Both the position numbers and the translations under genes were made by a program. A stretch of DNA of 64,000 nucleotides from Acetobacteraceae bacterium (GTDB lineage: Bacteria > Pseudomonadota > Alphaproteobacteria > Acetobacterales > Acetobacteraceae): contig JAIXWG010000028.1 in NCBI GenBank assembly GCA_027482245.1, forward strand, positions 1 through 64,000, read 5' to 3'. The notes below the pieces were generated by a model that made no database searches, was not told the DNA's origin, and saw nothing but the letters and a program-made list of their open reading frames with translations. This document shows, one piece after another, positions 1 through 5,161 of the stretch. Each line of letters starts with the position of its first letter. The first letter of the stretch is position 1.

Positions 1-444
1 CGGGCCGGGCGACGGGCTGGCGACGGGCGCCGCCGGGGCGGGCGCGCGGGGCGCCGGGGCCGGCGCGCCGCCATCCGCCAGCGCGCCCAGCCGCGCAAGC
101 AGATCCGCCGGCGCCGGCACGTCCTTGTGCTGGTCGATGACCACCGCGCGCTGGCGCCGCAGCACGTCCACGGCCGCCAGCAGCGCATCGGCGACGCCGC
201 CTTCCACCACCAGCTTGCCGTTGCGCGCCAGGCCGAGGATGTCCTCCGCCCGGTGCGCCACGTTCTTCATCCCCGGCGCGCCGAGCGCGTCCGACATGCC
301 CTTCAGCGAATGGAAGGCGCGGAACAGGCGGTCCACGGCCGGGCGGTCCGCCGCCGAGCCGCCCGCCAGGATGCGCTCGATGGCGTCGAGGTGCTCCTCC
401 GACTCGCCCGCGAATTCCTGCCATAGGCCCTCGTCTTCGATCAT
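1..444 (-). CDS. cheA: Chemotaxis histidine kinase CheA, N-terminal part (runs off the left edge)
   Basis: This is the 5' end of cheA; 148 codons are visible and the frame is open to the edge. Residues 1-110 form an Hpt (P1) domain with the phospho-accepting motif FHSLKGMSDALG, His at about residue 45. An Ala/Pro-rich linker follows, as expected between P1 and later domains. In CheA the His receives phosphate from the kinase core and passes it to CheY or CheB receivers in the cytoplasm. The ATG overlaps the TGA of the upstream gene (ATGA), so the two are translationally coupled. Kinase and CheW-like domains lie outside the window. Identification rests on the P1 domain and the che neighbours and is firm, although a CheA-like hybrid kinase cannot be excluded. 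Confidence 0.9.
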   Translation of the reverse strand, partial: MIEDEGLWQEFAGESEEHLDAIERILAGGSAADRPAVDRLFRAFHSLKGMSDALGAPGMKNVAHRAEDILGLARNGKLVVEGGVADALLAAVDVLRRQRAVVIDQHKDVPAPADLLARLGALADGGAPAPAPRAPAPAAPVASPSPGP

Positions 445-1757
445 GGATGGCCCCCCACCGGCAGCCCCGCCGCGCGGCGGGCGGTGCGCAGCAGCGCCTC
501 CCCCTGCCGCTGCTTCAGGTCGGGGCTGAGCGCTCCGGAGGGCTTGCCGACGATGCCCGCCACGCCAAGCCGCCGTGCCTCCACCGCCGTCGCCGAGCCC
601 GGCCGCGCGGCGGAGGAGACGATGACGACGGCGCCGATCCCCTCCAGCGCCCAGCGCCGCATCACGCCGATGCCGTCGAGTTCGGGCATCTCGATGTCCA
701 GCATGGTCAGGTCCGGCTGGTATTCGCGCATGGCGGCCAGGGCGCGGACGCCGTCCGGCGCTTCCCCCACCACCTCGAAATCCGGATCGGTGGCCAGCGT
801 CTCCCGCACCAGGCGGCGCATCATGGCGCTGTCATCCACCACCAGCACGCGCCGCCGGGCCGCCACCGGCGCGGCGGGGGCGTAGGGCAGGTCGTGGCCC
901 GCGATGGCGATGGCGGCGGCATGGGCGGCCAGCGCCACGGCATCGAAGGGCGGCTCCGCCAGCAGGGCACGGAGCGAATCGAGGCCCAGCGCCTCCGCCA
1001 TCGCGCGCAGCGGCTCGGCCGCACGGGCGGCCTCGGCATCGTCCGCCGCGGCCGCCAGGCGCGCGCAGCCCGCCTGGAATTCCGGCGTGAAGGCCGCCAG
1101 CATTTCCGGGTCCAGCGCTGCCGGGCCGGCGGGCGGCGCCGGCGGCGCCTCGGCCGGCGGCGGCAGATCCTCCCCCGCCTCGACGATCCGCGCGGCCTGG
1201 GCGGACAGCGTCACGGCCAGCGCCTTGAGACCGGGCGCGTCGAAGGGATCGAGCAGCGGCAGCGCGCGATCGAGTAGCAGCTTCAGCGACGCGAGCCCCG
1301 CCGCGCCCGCCAGCGCGCGCAGCCCGTCCAGCGCGCGACCGGCCGCGACCTCATCCGCCGCCGCGGCCAGCTTGCCGCAGGCGGCCTCGAATTCCGGCGC
1401 CAGCGCCTCCAGGATCTCCCGGTCCAGGCTCGGCGCCGGCGGCGCGGGCGGTGCCGGGGCGGGGGCCGGCGCGGCGGCGACCGGCGCGACATCCGCGCCC
1501 GCCTCCCCCACCGCTCGGGCGTGCCGCGCCAGCGCCTCCGCCGCCTGGTGCAGCGCCGGCAGGTCCAGCGGGTCGAGTGCCAGCGCCGCATCCTCCACCA
1601 GCCGCGCCAGTGATGGCGCACCCAGCGCCGCGGCCATGGCGCGCAGCTGGTCGAGCGCGCGCTGCGCCGGCGCGGCTTCCCGCACCATGGCGAGCCGCAC
1701 GGCCTCGGCCTCGAACTCCGGGACGAAGGCGTCGAGCATTTCCCGGTCCAGCGTCAT
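441..1757 (-). CDS. Three degenerate Hpt-like repeats fused to a CheY/CheB-type receiver domain
   Basis: The 438-residue protein has three tandem repeats (about 1-90, 110-200, 214-292), joined by Ala/Pro linkers, then a receiver domain (about 302-430). Each repeat starts like the CheA P1 helix (LDREMLDAFVPEFEA and variants) and continues with a segment that aligns without gaps to the P1 motif AFHSLKGMSDALG. The phospho-His is replaced by Asp36, Asp144 and Glu248 (ALDQLRAM, ALDGLRAL, AAEPLRAM). The receiver looks intact: acidic pair D308/D309, phosphoacceptor D354 (MLDIEMPELDG) and K405. There is no methylesterase domain. It overlaps cheB and cheA by ATGA junctions. I infer a chemotaxis response regulator that may act as CheY, phosphate sink or CheA-binding scaffold. 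Its function is not established from sequence. Confidence 0.8.
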   Translation of the reverse strand: MTLDREMLDAFVPEFEAEAVRLAMVREAAPAQRALDQLRAMAAALGAPSLARLVEDAALALDPLDLPALHQAAEALARHARAVGEAGADVAPVAAAPAPAPAPPAPPAPSLDREILEALAPEFEAACGKLAAAADEVAAGRALDGLRALAGAAGLASLKLLLDRALPLLDPFDAPGLKALAVTLSAQAARIVEAGEDLPPPAEAPPAPPAGPAALDPEMLAAFTPEFQAGCARLAAAADDAEAARAAEPLRAMAEALGLDSLRALLAEPPFDAVALAAHAAAIAIAGHDLPYAPAAPVAARRRVLVVDDSAMMRRLVRETLATDPDFEVVGEAPDGVRALAAMREYQPDLTMLDIEMPELDGIGVMRRWALEGIGAVVIVSSAARPGSATAVEARRLGVAGIVGKPSGALSPDLKQRQGEALLRTARRAAGLPVGGHP

Positions 1758-2794
1758 GCCACGCGCTCCTTCGCCAGCGCCTGCACGCGCCGGCCGAGCC
1801 CCGCGGGGTCCGCCGTTTCCACCGCCAGCCCGCTTTCGATCACGGCGCCGGGCATGCCGGCGACGACGCAGCTTGCGGGTGACTGGGCGAGCACGGGCAT
1901 GCCCCTTTCCGTCATGGCGCGGGCGCCCTGCTCCCCATCCCGCCCCATGCCGGTCAGCACCACGCCCAGGGCGCGGCGCGCCACCAGCGCGGCGGATTGG
2001 AACAGCAGGTCCACGGAAGGATGCACCGCCATCGGTCCGGAGGCGAGTCGAAGCGACAGCCCGCCCTCCCCGCCCGCCGCGCGGCGCGCCAGGTGGCCGT
2101 CCGTGCCGCCCGGGATCACCGTGACCTCGCCCGGGATCAGCACCTGCCCCGCGCGGCCGACACCGACCGGCACGCCGGACAGCCGCGCCAGGTGCTGCGC
2201 CAAGTCCGGCGCCAGATCGGCCGGCATGTGCTGCGCCACGACGCAGGGCACCGGCAGCCGCCCGGCCGCGGCCAGGAAGGCGGCCAGCGCATCGGGTCCG
2301 CCGGTGGAGGCGCCTACCACCACCACGTCGCAGCCGCCGGCCGCCTTCACCACCCGCACCGGCCCCGCCGCGCGGGCCATCGGCCGCACCGCCGCCCGCT
2401 GCCCCGCCCAGTGCCGCAGCCGCCCGCGCAGTTCGCGGTCCAGCATGCCGAGATCGACGCCGCCGAGGTCGCCATCCTTGCAGACATAGTCGACCGCACC
2501 GCGGTCCAGCGCCGCCAGCGCGGTGGCCGATCCGTCGCGGGTGTGGTGGCTGACCATCAGCACCGCCGGCGGGTCGGGCAGCGCCATGACGCGGCGTGTC
2601 GCCTCCAGCCCGTCCAGCTTCGGCATCTCCACATCCATGGCGATGACGTCGGGGCGGAGCTTCGCGGCCTGTTCCACGCCGGCCTCGCCATCCGCGGCCT
2701 CGCCGACCACCTTCAGGTCGCCATCGGCCTCGATGATGCGGCGCAGCGCCATGCGCATGAAGCCGCTATCGTCCACCACCAGGACGCGGATCAA
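1754..2794 (-). CDS. cheB: Chemotaxis protein-glutamate methylesterase/deamidase CheB
   Basis: CheB removes methyl groups from (and deamidates) chemoreceptor glutamates when its receiver is phosphorylated by CheA. The 346-residue length is typical. Residues 1-125 are a receiver with D54 in AMDVEMPKLDG. Residues 155-345 are the esterase, with catalytic Ser163 (VGASTGGP), His189 (AQHMP) and Asp286 (TGMGRDG), so the enzyme should be active. The start is TTG overlapping the stop of the CheW gene (TTGA), and the stop overlaps the next gene by ATGA. It opposes CheR encoded just upstream, giving receptor adaptation. No chemoreceptor gene is present in the window. Confidence 0.95.
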   Translation of the reverse strand: MIRVLVVDDSGFMRMALRRIIEADGDLKVVGEAADGEAGVEQAAKLRPDVIAMDVEMPKLDGLEATRRVMALPDPPAVLMVSHHTRDGSATALAALDRGAVDYVCKDGDLGGVDLGMLDRELRGRLRHWAGQRAAVRPMARAAGPVRVVKAAGGCDVVVVGASTGGPDALAAFLAAAGRLPVPCVVAQHMPADLAPDLAQHLARLSGVPVGVGRAGQVLIPGEVTVIPGGTDGHLARRAAGGEGGLSLRLASGPMAVHPSVDLLFQSAALVARRALGVVLTGMGRDGEQGARAMTERGMPVLAQSPASCVVAGMPGAVIESGLAVETADPAGLGRRVQALAKERVA

Positions 2795-3945
2795 GTGGAG
2801 GCGCCCAGGATGGCGGCGCGGCAGATCGGCAGGGGCGCGTCCTGGAATTCCGCGATGGCGGAGACCAGCCCCTCCCCGGCCACCGCCGCGATCAGCCGTT
2901 CGGGGATGCGCCGCAGCCCGGTGACGACGGACACCGCCAGCGCCACCGGCCGCGCGCCGGCCAGGCGCAGCAGCGGCGCCTCCGTCCCTGGCGTGGCCAG
3001 CACGGAAGCGAGGCCGAGCCTCTCCCCGGCGTCCAGCACCGGCAGGACCTCCCCCCGATGCGCCGCCACGCCGCGGAAGGCGGCAAGCCGTCCCTCGGGC
3101 GCGGGGCTCGGCGCCATGGGCGGGATCACCGCCTGCACCTCCTCCACCGGCAGGGCGAAGGCCTGGCCGCCGGCCGCGCAGACCAGCAGGGCGCGCACGG
3201 GTTCCGGCACCGGCGGCGCCAGCACCTGGCCGAGCGGCGCCGCCGCCAACTCGGCGATCGCGGCATCGAGCCGCGCGACCAGCGTCGCCTCCCCCGGCCG
3301 CGCCGGTTCGATCCGGTGGCAGGGCAGGCCAAGCCGCCGGCCGGCATGGCGGAACAGCACCAGCAGCCCCGGCGGCGGGCCTTCCGCCAGGGGGCTTTCG
3401 CCCGCCCAGGCGGGGTCCAGCACCATCACCGGCGCCCCGGCCGCGACGGCGTAGCCCAGCGCCGCCGTCCCCGCGCCGGGGGCGGGGCGCAACTCCGGCA
3501 GCGGCACCACCCGTTCCAGCGCGGCGAAGGGCAGCACGAGGCGGAGCCCGCCGATCTCCGCCGCCATGGCCACCAAGCGCGCGCGGCCGGCGCGGGCCGG
3601 CACTGCCCAGCCGGCGCCGGACGCGGCCTCCGCCGGCGGCACGGGGCGGGCGGCCAGGCGCGGCGCCAGCAGGGGGCGCGCGCCGGGCGGCGCTTCCGCC
3701 ACCAGGGCCTCTCCGGCCATGATCACGCGGCCGCCGGGGCCATCGATCACCACCCAGGCATCGCCGCCCGGCAGCCCGGCTTCCGGCGCCATCACCGGCA
3801 GGGCCTGCCCGCCGATCACCGCGATGCCGAGCAGCCCCGCCCCCGCCAGCGGCGCGGGGCGCAGGCGCTGCGGGTCCACCGGCTGCGCGCCGGCCGGCAG
3901 CAGGAAGGCCAGGCCACCGGCGATCAGCGCCTCAGCCACCCGCAT
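2791..3945 (-). CDS. cheW: Multi-domain CheW-like coupling protein
   Basis: CheW couples chemoreceptors to CheA. This protein (384 residues from the ATG at 3945) is more than twice the usual length. The last third (from about residue 258) is a clear CheW fold: RALLVCAAGGQAFALPVEEV, then AAFRGVAAHRGEVLPVLD. The middle third is a second copy (VAMAAEIGGLRLVLPFAALE, then GAPVMVLDPAWAG). The first about 90 residues look like a third, worn copy (IAGGLAFLLP, then GIAVIGGQALPVM). An upstream in-frame ATG at 3969 would add eight residues and lengthen the overlap with cheR from 14 to 38 bases, so I prefer 3945. A single-domain CheW is not present. Multi-CheW proteins are inferred to bridge receptor arrays. 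Confidence 0.8.
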   Translation of the reverse strand: MRVAEALIAGGLAFLLPAGAQPVDPQRLRPAPLAGAGLLGIAVIGGQALPVMAPEAGLPGGDAWVVIDGPGGRVIMAGEALVAEAPPGARPLLAPRLAARPVPPAEAASGAGWAVPARAGRARLVAMAAEIGGLRLVLPFAALERVVPLPELRPAPGAGTAALGYAVAAGAPVMVLDPAWAGESPLAEGPPPGLLVLFRHAGRRLGLPCHRIEPARPGEATLVARLDAAIAELAAAPLGQVLAPPVPEPVRALLVCAAGGQAFALPVEEVQAVIPPMAPSPAPEGRLAAFRGVAAHRGEVLPVLDAGERLGLASVLATPGTEAPLLRLAGARPVALAVSVVTGLRRIPERLIAAVAGEGLVSAIAEFQDAPLPICRAAILGAST

Positions 3946-4732
3946 CCTCCCGCCGCCAGATGCCGACAAGCTCCCGCGACCACAGCCGCAGGCCGAGCCC
4001 GGGCGGCGGCGAATCGGTCGGCCCGAGCAGCAGCGCGCCGCCGGGGCGGAGCGCCGCCGCCAATTGCCGCAGCACCGAAAGCCGCCCCTCCGGCGTCATG
4101 TAGATCAGCACGTTGCGGCAGAGGATCGCATCCGCGCTGGCCTCCGGCAGGCCGCAATCCAGCAGGTTGGCACGCCGGAAGCGCACGCCGGGGCGCAGCG
4201 CCTCCACCGGCTCGAACCACCCATCGGCGATGTCGAGCAGCAGGCGGTCCTCGGCCTTCACCTCCCGCAGCGCATCGGGGGGGCCGAGTCGGTAGCGCGC
4301 CGCTTCCGCCACCTCCAGCGCCGGGCGGCAGACATCGATGCCCAGCACCCGCCAGGGATGGGCCGATCGCGCGCCGAGGATGGCGAGCGTCCAGGCTTCC
4401 TCCCCCGTCGCGCAGCCCGCGGAGACGAAGGACAGCGGCCGGCCCGCCGCGCGCTCCACCAGATCCGGCAGCACGATCTGGCGGAACTGGTCGAGCTGGG
4501 CGGAGGCGCGGAACATCCGCGTCTCCTGCACCGTCACGGCATCCAGCAGCGCGGCCCAGTCGGGATGGTCGATGCCCGGCCGGTCCATCGGCAGGCGCGC
4601 CACCAGCGCCGCGGCGCGCACCAGGCGGTTCATCAGGACGTCGGACCGGGCGAAGCCTGCCAGATCCTCAAGGCGGTCCAGCACCGCGCCGAAGGGCGGC
4701 GCGGCCAGGGCATGCGACCCGGTATCAGGCAC
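3932..4732 (-). CDS. cheR: Chemotaxis protein methyltransferase CheR
   Basis: CheR transfers methyl groups from S-adenosylmethionine to receptor glutamates. The 266-residue protein shows the family landmarks in order: a helical N-terminal domain ending in VTVQETRMFR (about 67-76), the SAM-binding loop SAGCATGEEAW (about 104-114), the acidic strand GIDVCRPALE (about 131-140) and ILCRNVLIYM (about 203-212). The start is GTG, six bases after the stop of the ATPase gene. Its 3' end overlaps the multi-CheW gene. No TPR or PAS extension is present, so this is a plain CheR. Confidence 0.95.
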   Translation of the reverse strand: MPDTGSHALAAPPFGAVLDRLEDLAGFARSDVLMNRLVRAAALVARLPMDRPGIDHPDWAALLDAVTVQETRMFRASAQLDQFRQIVLPDLVERAAGRPLSFVSAGCATGEEAWTLAILGARSAHPWRVLGIDVCRPALEVAEAARYRLGPPDALREVKAEDRLLLDIADGWFEPVEALRPGVRFRRANLLDCGLPEASADAILCRNVLIYMTPEGRLSVLRQLAAALRPGGALLLGPTDSPPPGLGLRLWSRELVGIWRREDAGG

Positions 4733-4738
4733 CGCCGT

Positions 4739-5161
4739 TCAGCCGGCCGCGTCCAGCACGGCCGTCAGCCGGTTCAGGCCATCCTCCCGGCTGTAGCGCA
4801 GCGTCTTGGTCATCTGCTGCACGAAATGCACGCCGAGCCCGCCGATGTCCCGGTCCTCCAGCGACGCCTCGGTATCCGGCGTGGCGCGGGCCAGCGGATC
4901 GAAGGCGCGGCCATCATCCTCGACCGTCGCGATGACCTCCTCCGCCTCCTGCCGCACGGTGACGGCGATGTAGGTCGCGCCGCCATCGCCGCCCGTGCCG
5001 TGCATGGCGACGTTGGCGGCCAGTTCCTCCACCACCACCGCCAGGCGATGGGCGGCCTTGGGGGACAGCCCCGCCTCCTCGGCGAAGCCTTCCAGCGCGT
5101 CGAGCAGACGCGGGACCTCCTCCGTGTCGGGCGGGATGGTGAGGGCAAGCGGTTGCGGCAC
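4739..5161 (-). CDS. RsbW-like ATP-binding protein (anti-sigma/serine kinase family)
   Basis: This 140-residue protein is essentially a single HATPase_c_2 domain. The N box is VVVEELAANVAMHG (about 42-55), the G1 box is DDGRAFDP (about 82-89) and the G2 region is GGLGVHFVQQM (about 107-117). Such proteins bind ATP and act as anti-sigma factors, serine kinases of STAS proteins, or stand-alone ATPases. It is the first gene of the che operon (GTG start, no strong ribosome-binding site). No partner STAS domain or sigma factor is encoded in the window. Its link to chemotaxis is inferred from position only. Confidence 0.8.
   Translation of the reverse strand: MPQPLALTIPPDTEEVPRLLDALEGFAEEAGLSPKAAHRLAVVVEELAANVAMHGTGGDGGATYIAVTVRQEAEEVIATVEDDGRAFDPLARATPDTEASLEDRDIGGLGVHFVQQMTKTLRYSREDGLNRLTAVLDAAG

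Follow-up and report, generated by a model that had tools for sequence, protein, structure and literature searches.

A candidate CheY-type response regulator with three Hpt-derived repeats lacking the phospho-histidine, encoded beside cheA in an Acetobacteraceae bacterium

In the stretch of Acetobacteraceae DNA that we analysed (the window, 64,000 nucleotides), the gene beside cheA encodes a protein in which three predicted four-helix repeats precede an intact receiver domain. These repeats have the predicted fold and the profile homology of an Hpt domain but lack the feature which defines it, the phosphorylatable His. On balance, we lean towards reading the protein as a CheY-type response regulator for the neighbouring CheA, in which non-phosphorylatable, Hpt-derived modules would serve for docking through putative binding.

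The gene belongs to a run which comprises, in this order, the genes of an RsbW-type ATPase, CheR, a double CheW, CheB, the pseudo-Hpt-receiver protein and CheA (Table 1). The window begins at the end of contig C14, within cheA, the remainder of which is found in the same genome at G000:C4:114272-116443; the two parts correspond to residues 1-149 and 152-875 of the CheA of locus L036. Near this remainder, on contig C4, lies the gene of a REC-SpoIIE phosphatase (G000:C4:112332-113507), as in relatives. The same genome holds at least six further CheA-like kinase matches, on contigs C2, C18, C46, C49 (two) and C62.

Table 1. Features of the gene run in the window; residue numbers are those of the pseudo-Hpt-receiver protein
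Feature	Positions	Strand	Basis or remark
Pseudo-Hpt x3 + receiver protein, 438 aa	441..1757	-	ATG start; stop codon 441-443; ORF and homologues
Pseudo-Hpt repeat 1, residues 3-100 including linker	1458..1751	-	AlphaFold, hhalign
Repeat 1 helices, residues 5-24, 28-45, 48-58, 66-86			AlphaFold
Asp36 codon, phospho-His position of repeat 1	1650..1652	-	alignment
Pseudo-Hpt repeat 2, residues 111-208 including linker	1134..1427	-	alignment, AlphaFold
Asp144 codon, phospho-His position of repeat 2	1326..1328	-	alignment
Pseudo-Hpt repeat 3, residue 215 onwards, with a short third helix	855..1115	-	alignment, AlphaFold
Glu248 codon, phospho-His position of repeat 3	1014..1016	-	Asp in L036, L037, L038, L040
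CheY6/CheB-type receiver domain, residues 303-434, KPSGA-SPDL C-terminal extension	456..851	-	Pfam Response_reg 5.3e-18
Asp354 codon, predicted phosphoacceptor	696..698	-	invariant in 19/19 proteins
cheA, 5' part only, P1/Hpt with HSLKG	1..444	-	Pfam Hpt 5e-16
cheB	1754..2794	-	Pfam CheB_methylest 6.9e-46
cheW-like, two matched CheW stretches	2791..3969	-	Pfam
cheR	3932..4732	-	Pfam CheR 1.3e-28
RsbW-type HATPase_c_2 protein, opening the run	4739..5161	-	Pfam HATPase_c_2 6.1e-21

The helix-B motifs of the three repeats, ALDQLRAMAAALG, ALDGLRALAGAAG and AAEPLRAMAEALG, align without gaps to AFHSLKGMSDALG of the P1 domain of CheA (1-444, minus strand), and this alignment puts D36, D144 and E248 at the position of the P1 His. 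The first-pass annotation had claimed a gapless alignment of the repeats to the P1 motif: this holds for the core motif, but the whole domain requires a gap in the A-B loop (hhalign). We compared with hhalign 35 repeats from 19 proteins and a set of 21 Hpt domains (the 10 CheA P1 of these operons and 11 others from the window's own genome) and obtained a probability of 94.8 %, an E of 4.9e-8 and a score of 46.3, with the acid falling under the His. As controls, the reversed repeats gave 0.63 %, and 60 column shuffles reached a maximal score of 13.8, to be compared with 46.3. The 11 non-operon Hpts alone gave 88.9 % (reversed controls at most 1.4 %), the 10 operon P1s alone 62.9 % and a score of 30.7, one of 60 shuffles reaching 19.3, and another set of 33 operon P1s only 10.3 % and a score of 21.8. 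When the PDB was searched with the profile, the top two matches were T. maritima CheA P1 (E 0.0043 and 0.007), the His lying over the Asp, and HLA chains came next (E 0.016). AlphaFold predicts four helices for repeat 1 alone (pLDDT 91.5, pTM 0.82) and, in the full-length model, for each of the three repeats, the third helix of repeat 3 being short. As the profile comparison with its controls, the PDB profile search and AlphaFold agree, they support the view that the repeats are Hpt-derived four-helix domains with an acid at the phospho-His position, and the Hpt-like fold that had been proposed for them stands as a prediction.

It could be argued that the repeats have no Hpt ancestry at all and are convergent, alanine-rich four-helix bundles which carry a P1-like motif by chance. 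Indeed, at E<=1 the window protein is not matched by Pfam Hpt, the gathering score not being reached, and the 16 places that Pfam Hpt matches in the own genome at E<=10 do not include the window repeats. The first Foldseek match of the repeat is the P1 of CheA3 (3kyi) with an E of 0.076, none being found at 0.001, and cytochrome b562-type bundles score almost as high, so that Foldseek alone is not decisive. The lower values obtained with the two sets of operon P1s, and the shuffle at 19.3, point the same way. However, convergence does not sit well with the values of the combined profile and of the non-operon Hpts, which the reversed controls do not approach, nor with the fact that the two best PDB sequence matches are CheA P1. 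Moreover, Pfam Hpt is the Pfam family matched by most members of the repeat set (13/35, weakly, best E 0.012), while hhalign yields at most 2.2 % with other helical regions of these CheAs. We give a convergent bundle the smallest chance of all the readings considered here.

The loss of the His had been noticed in the window protein, and it extends to the family: none of 61 family repeats has a His at the phospho-His position. In 27 proteins (the acid group), 43/43 repeats carry D (38) or E (5), while in 18 single-repeat proteins (the other group) the residue is A in 15, V in 2 and N in 1. This count uses a motif-anchored placing, MAFFT leaving a gap in L018 and L125, which were counted as A and V, and it leaves out L054 and L105, which are masked before the receiver. 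In a tree of CheA, the 14 non-acid rows form one clade (96/96) and the base of the acid group is unplaced; this tree is without L042, L048, L116 and L126, whose cheA is cut, and the site residue is known for 18/19 of its acid rows (L054 is masked). A receiver tree has three changes between acid and non-acid with an unresolved base, and does not settle their order. The acid is likely to be the older state and, since the 14 non-acid rows form one clade, it was changed without loss of the gene.

These counts bear on the proposal that the acid is a mimic of phospho-His, by which Asp or Glu would imitate the phosphorylated residue and hold receivers as in mid-transfer. The part of the proposal which stands is that the acid is fixed in the 27 proteins, with D and E exchanging. 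However, the 18 relatives with A, V or N retain the gene and its receiver and, wherever their cheA was read, they retain the gene beside it. As judged from the sequences, an acidic mimic is not a family-wide need, because these 18 relatives carry other residues, and the acid characterises a single group; we regard the mimic as a very unlikely explanation of the repeats. The first-pass annotation had held that random residues at the His position of homologues would speak against its reading, and this is half the case, A, V or N being found in 18 repeats versus D or E in 43.

On the same kind of evidence, the His site has left phospho-chemistry and the domain has not simply decayed. Pairwise dN/dS lies between 0.07 and 0.53 for the repeats and between 0.07 and 0.26 for the receiver (8 non-independent species pairs); the values of the repeats make decay unlikely and point to purifying selection, in agreement with what had been suggested from the window alone. 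Counting from the His site, R-3 is kept in 42/43 repeats of the acid group and 16/18 of the other group, L/M+2 in 43/43 and 18/18, R+3 in 37/43 and 13/18, A/G+4 in 42/43 and 16/18, and M/L+5 in 43/43 and 18/18. Where the Hpt set has an almost invariant Glu, D/E is found in only 11/43 and 5/18 repeats. Twenty-six columns are at least 90 % of one class in the acid group, and six of them, the His site included, differ in the commonest class of the other group. The mean column entropy of helices A/B versus C/D is 1.21/1.33 versus 1.91/1.57 in the acid group and 0.98/1.27 versus 1.70/1.86 in the other group; these entropies were taken over whole helices, with buried and exposed positions pooled, and the conservation of A and B may therefore reflect packing.

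The receiver had been described as intact and devoid of a CheB esterase, and we agree with this description. Its catalytic residues D308, D309, D354, S381/S382 and K405 are invariant in 19/19 proteins, Pfam gives Response_reg only, and Pfam and NCBIfam detect neither a methylesterase nor another output domain in the window protein, the receiver being the only domain matched. The best NCBIfam model is NF001965 (CheB, receiver part; 2.5e-27), and the best of 66 PDB matches is CheY6 of Rhodobacter sphaeroides (3kyj_B, E 6e-25), ahead of CheB receivers. Residues A311-M312 align with the Ala-Met pair which stands at the start of helix 1 in CheY6 (the Met finger). This pair is not universal: L040 has DDSPL, L015 and L017 have DDSAL, and several proteins of the non-acid group have DDSPT, DDSAT or DDSRT. 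As to a CheY-type receiver fed by CheA, the signs are mixed: CheY6 is the best PDB match and cheA adjoins, yet the protein has extra N-terminal domains. The remark that no cheY is present in the visible part of the operon can be extended to 37 loci, in whose ORFs three receiver queries at E<=1e-5 found no second CheY-like single-domain receiver; what they matched was the pseudo-Hpt-receiver gene, CheB, the REC-SpoIIE protein and, in some loci, longer upstream ORFs. In L043, L046, L049 and L051 a gene recognised by eye as that of an OmpR/PhoB-like regulator lies upstream of the RsbW-type gene, on the same strand.

An invariant active site and the want of a detected output domain would suit a phosphate sink, in which only the receiver counts, draining CheA~P, and the bundles at the N-terminus serve as spacers or for oligomerisation; a sink function seems to be common for the receivers found inside CheAs, according to the accessible part of a preprint (PMC10542144). 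However, R-3, L+2, R+3 and M/L+5 are kept in both groups, which would not be required of a mere spacer, even though packing could explain the hydrophobic positions among them, and we consider a sink rather unlikely. The protein might also be an inhibitor of CheA, if the repeats mimicked P1 in the kinase (P4) site and lowered the phosphorylation of P1, the state of the receiver switching the inhibition. P1-like repeats are encoded beside cheA in 37/37 loci, the His site is acidic in the window's group, and an inhibitory role in the relay is ascribed to plant pseudo-Hpts, which we count in favour of inhibition. It is made improbable by the Ala which is commonest at the His site in the other group, and by the loss of D/E at the near-invariant Glu position in most repeats.

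In the docking reading that we prefer, the receiver would take phosphate at D354 from the P1 of CheA. No relay is expected from the Hpt-derived domains, because the phospho-His is absent; they would instead dock a receiver, which might be their own, that of CheB or the one in the REC-SpoIIE phosphatase encoded nearby; alternatively, their target would be CheA, on which they would compete with P1 as inactive counterparts. Docking would set the place and the duration of the engagement of the regulator or of the output phosphatase. We take it to be the most likely job of the repeats because they best keep the two helices by which CheA P1 holds receivers. In the complex of CheA3 P1 and CheY6, as described in the accessible part of its report (PMC2817712), P1 contacts the receiver through its helices A and B together with the B-C loop, Met13 of CheY6 (the Met finger) enters a pocket of P1 between helices A and B, and P1 suffices for binding, CheA3 having no P2. 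In the CheA of the present system, Pfam likewise matched no P2. The CheY6-like receiver with its Ala-Met pair, the P1 of CheA3 as top Foldseek match, the conservation of helices A and B and the lack of a P2 match favour the view that a receiver-type docking face is retained in the repeats, and the rank of CheY6 as best PDB match of the receiver strengthens the docking reading. The full-length AlphaFold model (pTM 0.37) shows no confident packing of the repeats on the receiver. It is possible, though we would sooner doubt it than assert it, that the protein represents a class of response regulators whose His-less repeats are dead P1 docking arms, tripled in the window's genus, which compete with CheA P1 for receivers, that of REC-SpoIIE included, and so buffer chemosensory output in a tunable way.

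Among named species, Falsiroseomonas algicola, Roseomonas ponticola and F. stagni are the closest relatives. An HMM search for the repeat-receiver architecture in Acetobacteraceae, advised in the first-pass annotation, did find such a family: the family profile matches 61 of 397 genomes at E<=1e-25, and 44 of these 61 were counted as members (E<=3.7e-31, by E-value and matched range), the other 17 matching mainly in the receiver. The N-terminal region is seen in 42 of the 44 members, G370 being unread and G411 masked before the receiver, and it is strongly shortened in g73 genomes. A profile of the repeat matches 25/299 family genomes at E<=0.001, the matches of G190, G337 and G347 being weak and unverified, and 1/385 class genomes, which is the own genome; in the genome searches, just a portion of the first-look candidates is scored. 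Within the genus, the gene is present in 8 of the 15 genomes that were searched, the own genome among them, and all eight have three repeats. Among 45 distinct proteins, a single repeat is found in 37, and three repeats occur in 8, all of them from the window's genus; entries whose receivers were identical had been combined, which also removed L115, another species, with A at the His site. The repeats group in their tree by position (position 1, 100/99; moderately for position 2, 83/66, and position 3, 83/88), hence the triplication is older than the split of the three-repeat species.

The gene is followed by cheA in the same direction in 37/37 loci and preceded by cheB in 34/37, the exceptions being L054 (masked), L121 (contig end) and L133. 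A REC-SpoIIE (RsbU-like) phosphatase gene is convergent to cheA in 23/37 loci (>=60 % identity; L036:13720-14895, minus strand). Since this gene is convergent to cheA and an RsbW-type ATPase opens the run, we likely deal with a chemosensory system with a partner-switch output. Four relatives of the receiver have no repeat domain: L062, L064 and L128 lie near cheA, cheB or cheR, and no che gene was found in the stretch of L127.

His-less Hpts are already known inside CheAs. The accessible part of the preprint mentioned above (PMC10542144) places them in multi-Hpt CheAs, ChpA of P. aeruginosa and CheA3 of R. sphaeroides, beside active Hpts, and calls the role of Hpts without a phosphorylation site yet to be determined. 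Here they belong to a response regulator of its own that has no active Hpt, and a search of the open literature brought up no description of such a domain joined to a bacterial receiver, PMC3842833 and PMC11481889 concerning other proteins in their accessible parts. With CheA P1 (T. maritima 1tqg/2ld6, R. sphaeroides CheA3 3kyi) the repeats share four helices, the FxxE of helix A, the Gly after helix B and the helix-B motif R-x-x-[site]-x-L-[K/R]-[G/A]-M; unlike it, they have no His, have mostly lost the near-invariant Glu and are fused to a receiver, not to a kinase. Plant pseudo-Hpt proteins of the AHP6 type have an Hpt with its His replaced and are not known to carry a receiver. The receiver resembles CheY6 (3kyj/3kyi) by its match, by the Ala-Met pair and by the KPSG-S-DL extension, but the solved CheY6 is a single receiver without an Hpt-like domain. 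The CheY6-like single receivers of L062, L064 and L128 have the same extension, with che genes near, and likewise no N-terminal Hpt-like domain. CheB provides the best NCBIfam receiver model, but the window protein is without the methylesterase domain and a full cheB adjoins. Here the His-less Hpts come in a smaller, separate protein, which occurs naturally with one copy or three and with an acid or an alanine at the His site; the likely kinase adjoins, and the nearest solved relative of the receiver, CheY6, has a known complex with P1; their role is thereby directly testable with small soluble proteins.

Finally, a few observations concern the neighbouring genes. In the CheA of L036, residues 125-450 form a long alanine-rich stretch that separates P1 from the kinase core and in which Pfam recognises no domain, not even P2; further Hpt-like repeats were considered in CheA 125-450 and rejected (hhalign at most 2.2 %). 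L133 keeps the genes of the pseudo-Hpt receiver, CheW, the RsbW-type ATPase and CheA, with no cheB or cheR within a 15 kb stretch. The gene of a fasciclin-domain protein comes after cheA in 6/7 three-repeat loci (L036:13077-13640, plus strand), the seventh, L042, being cut.
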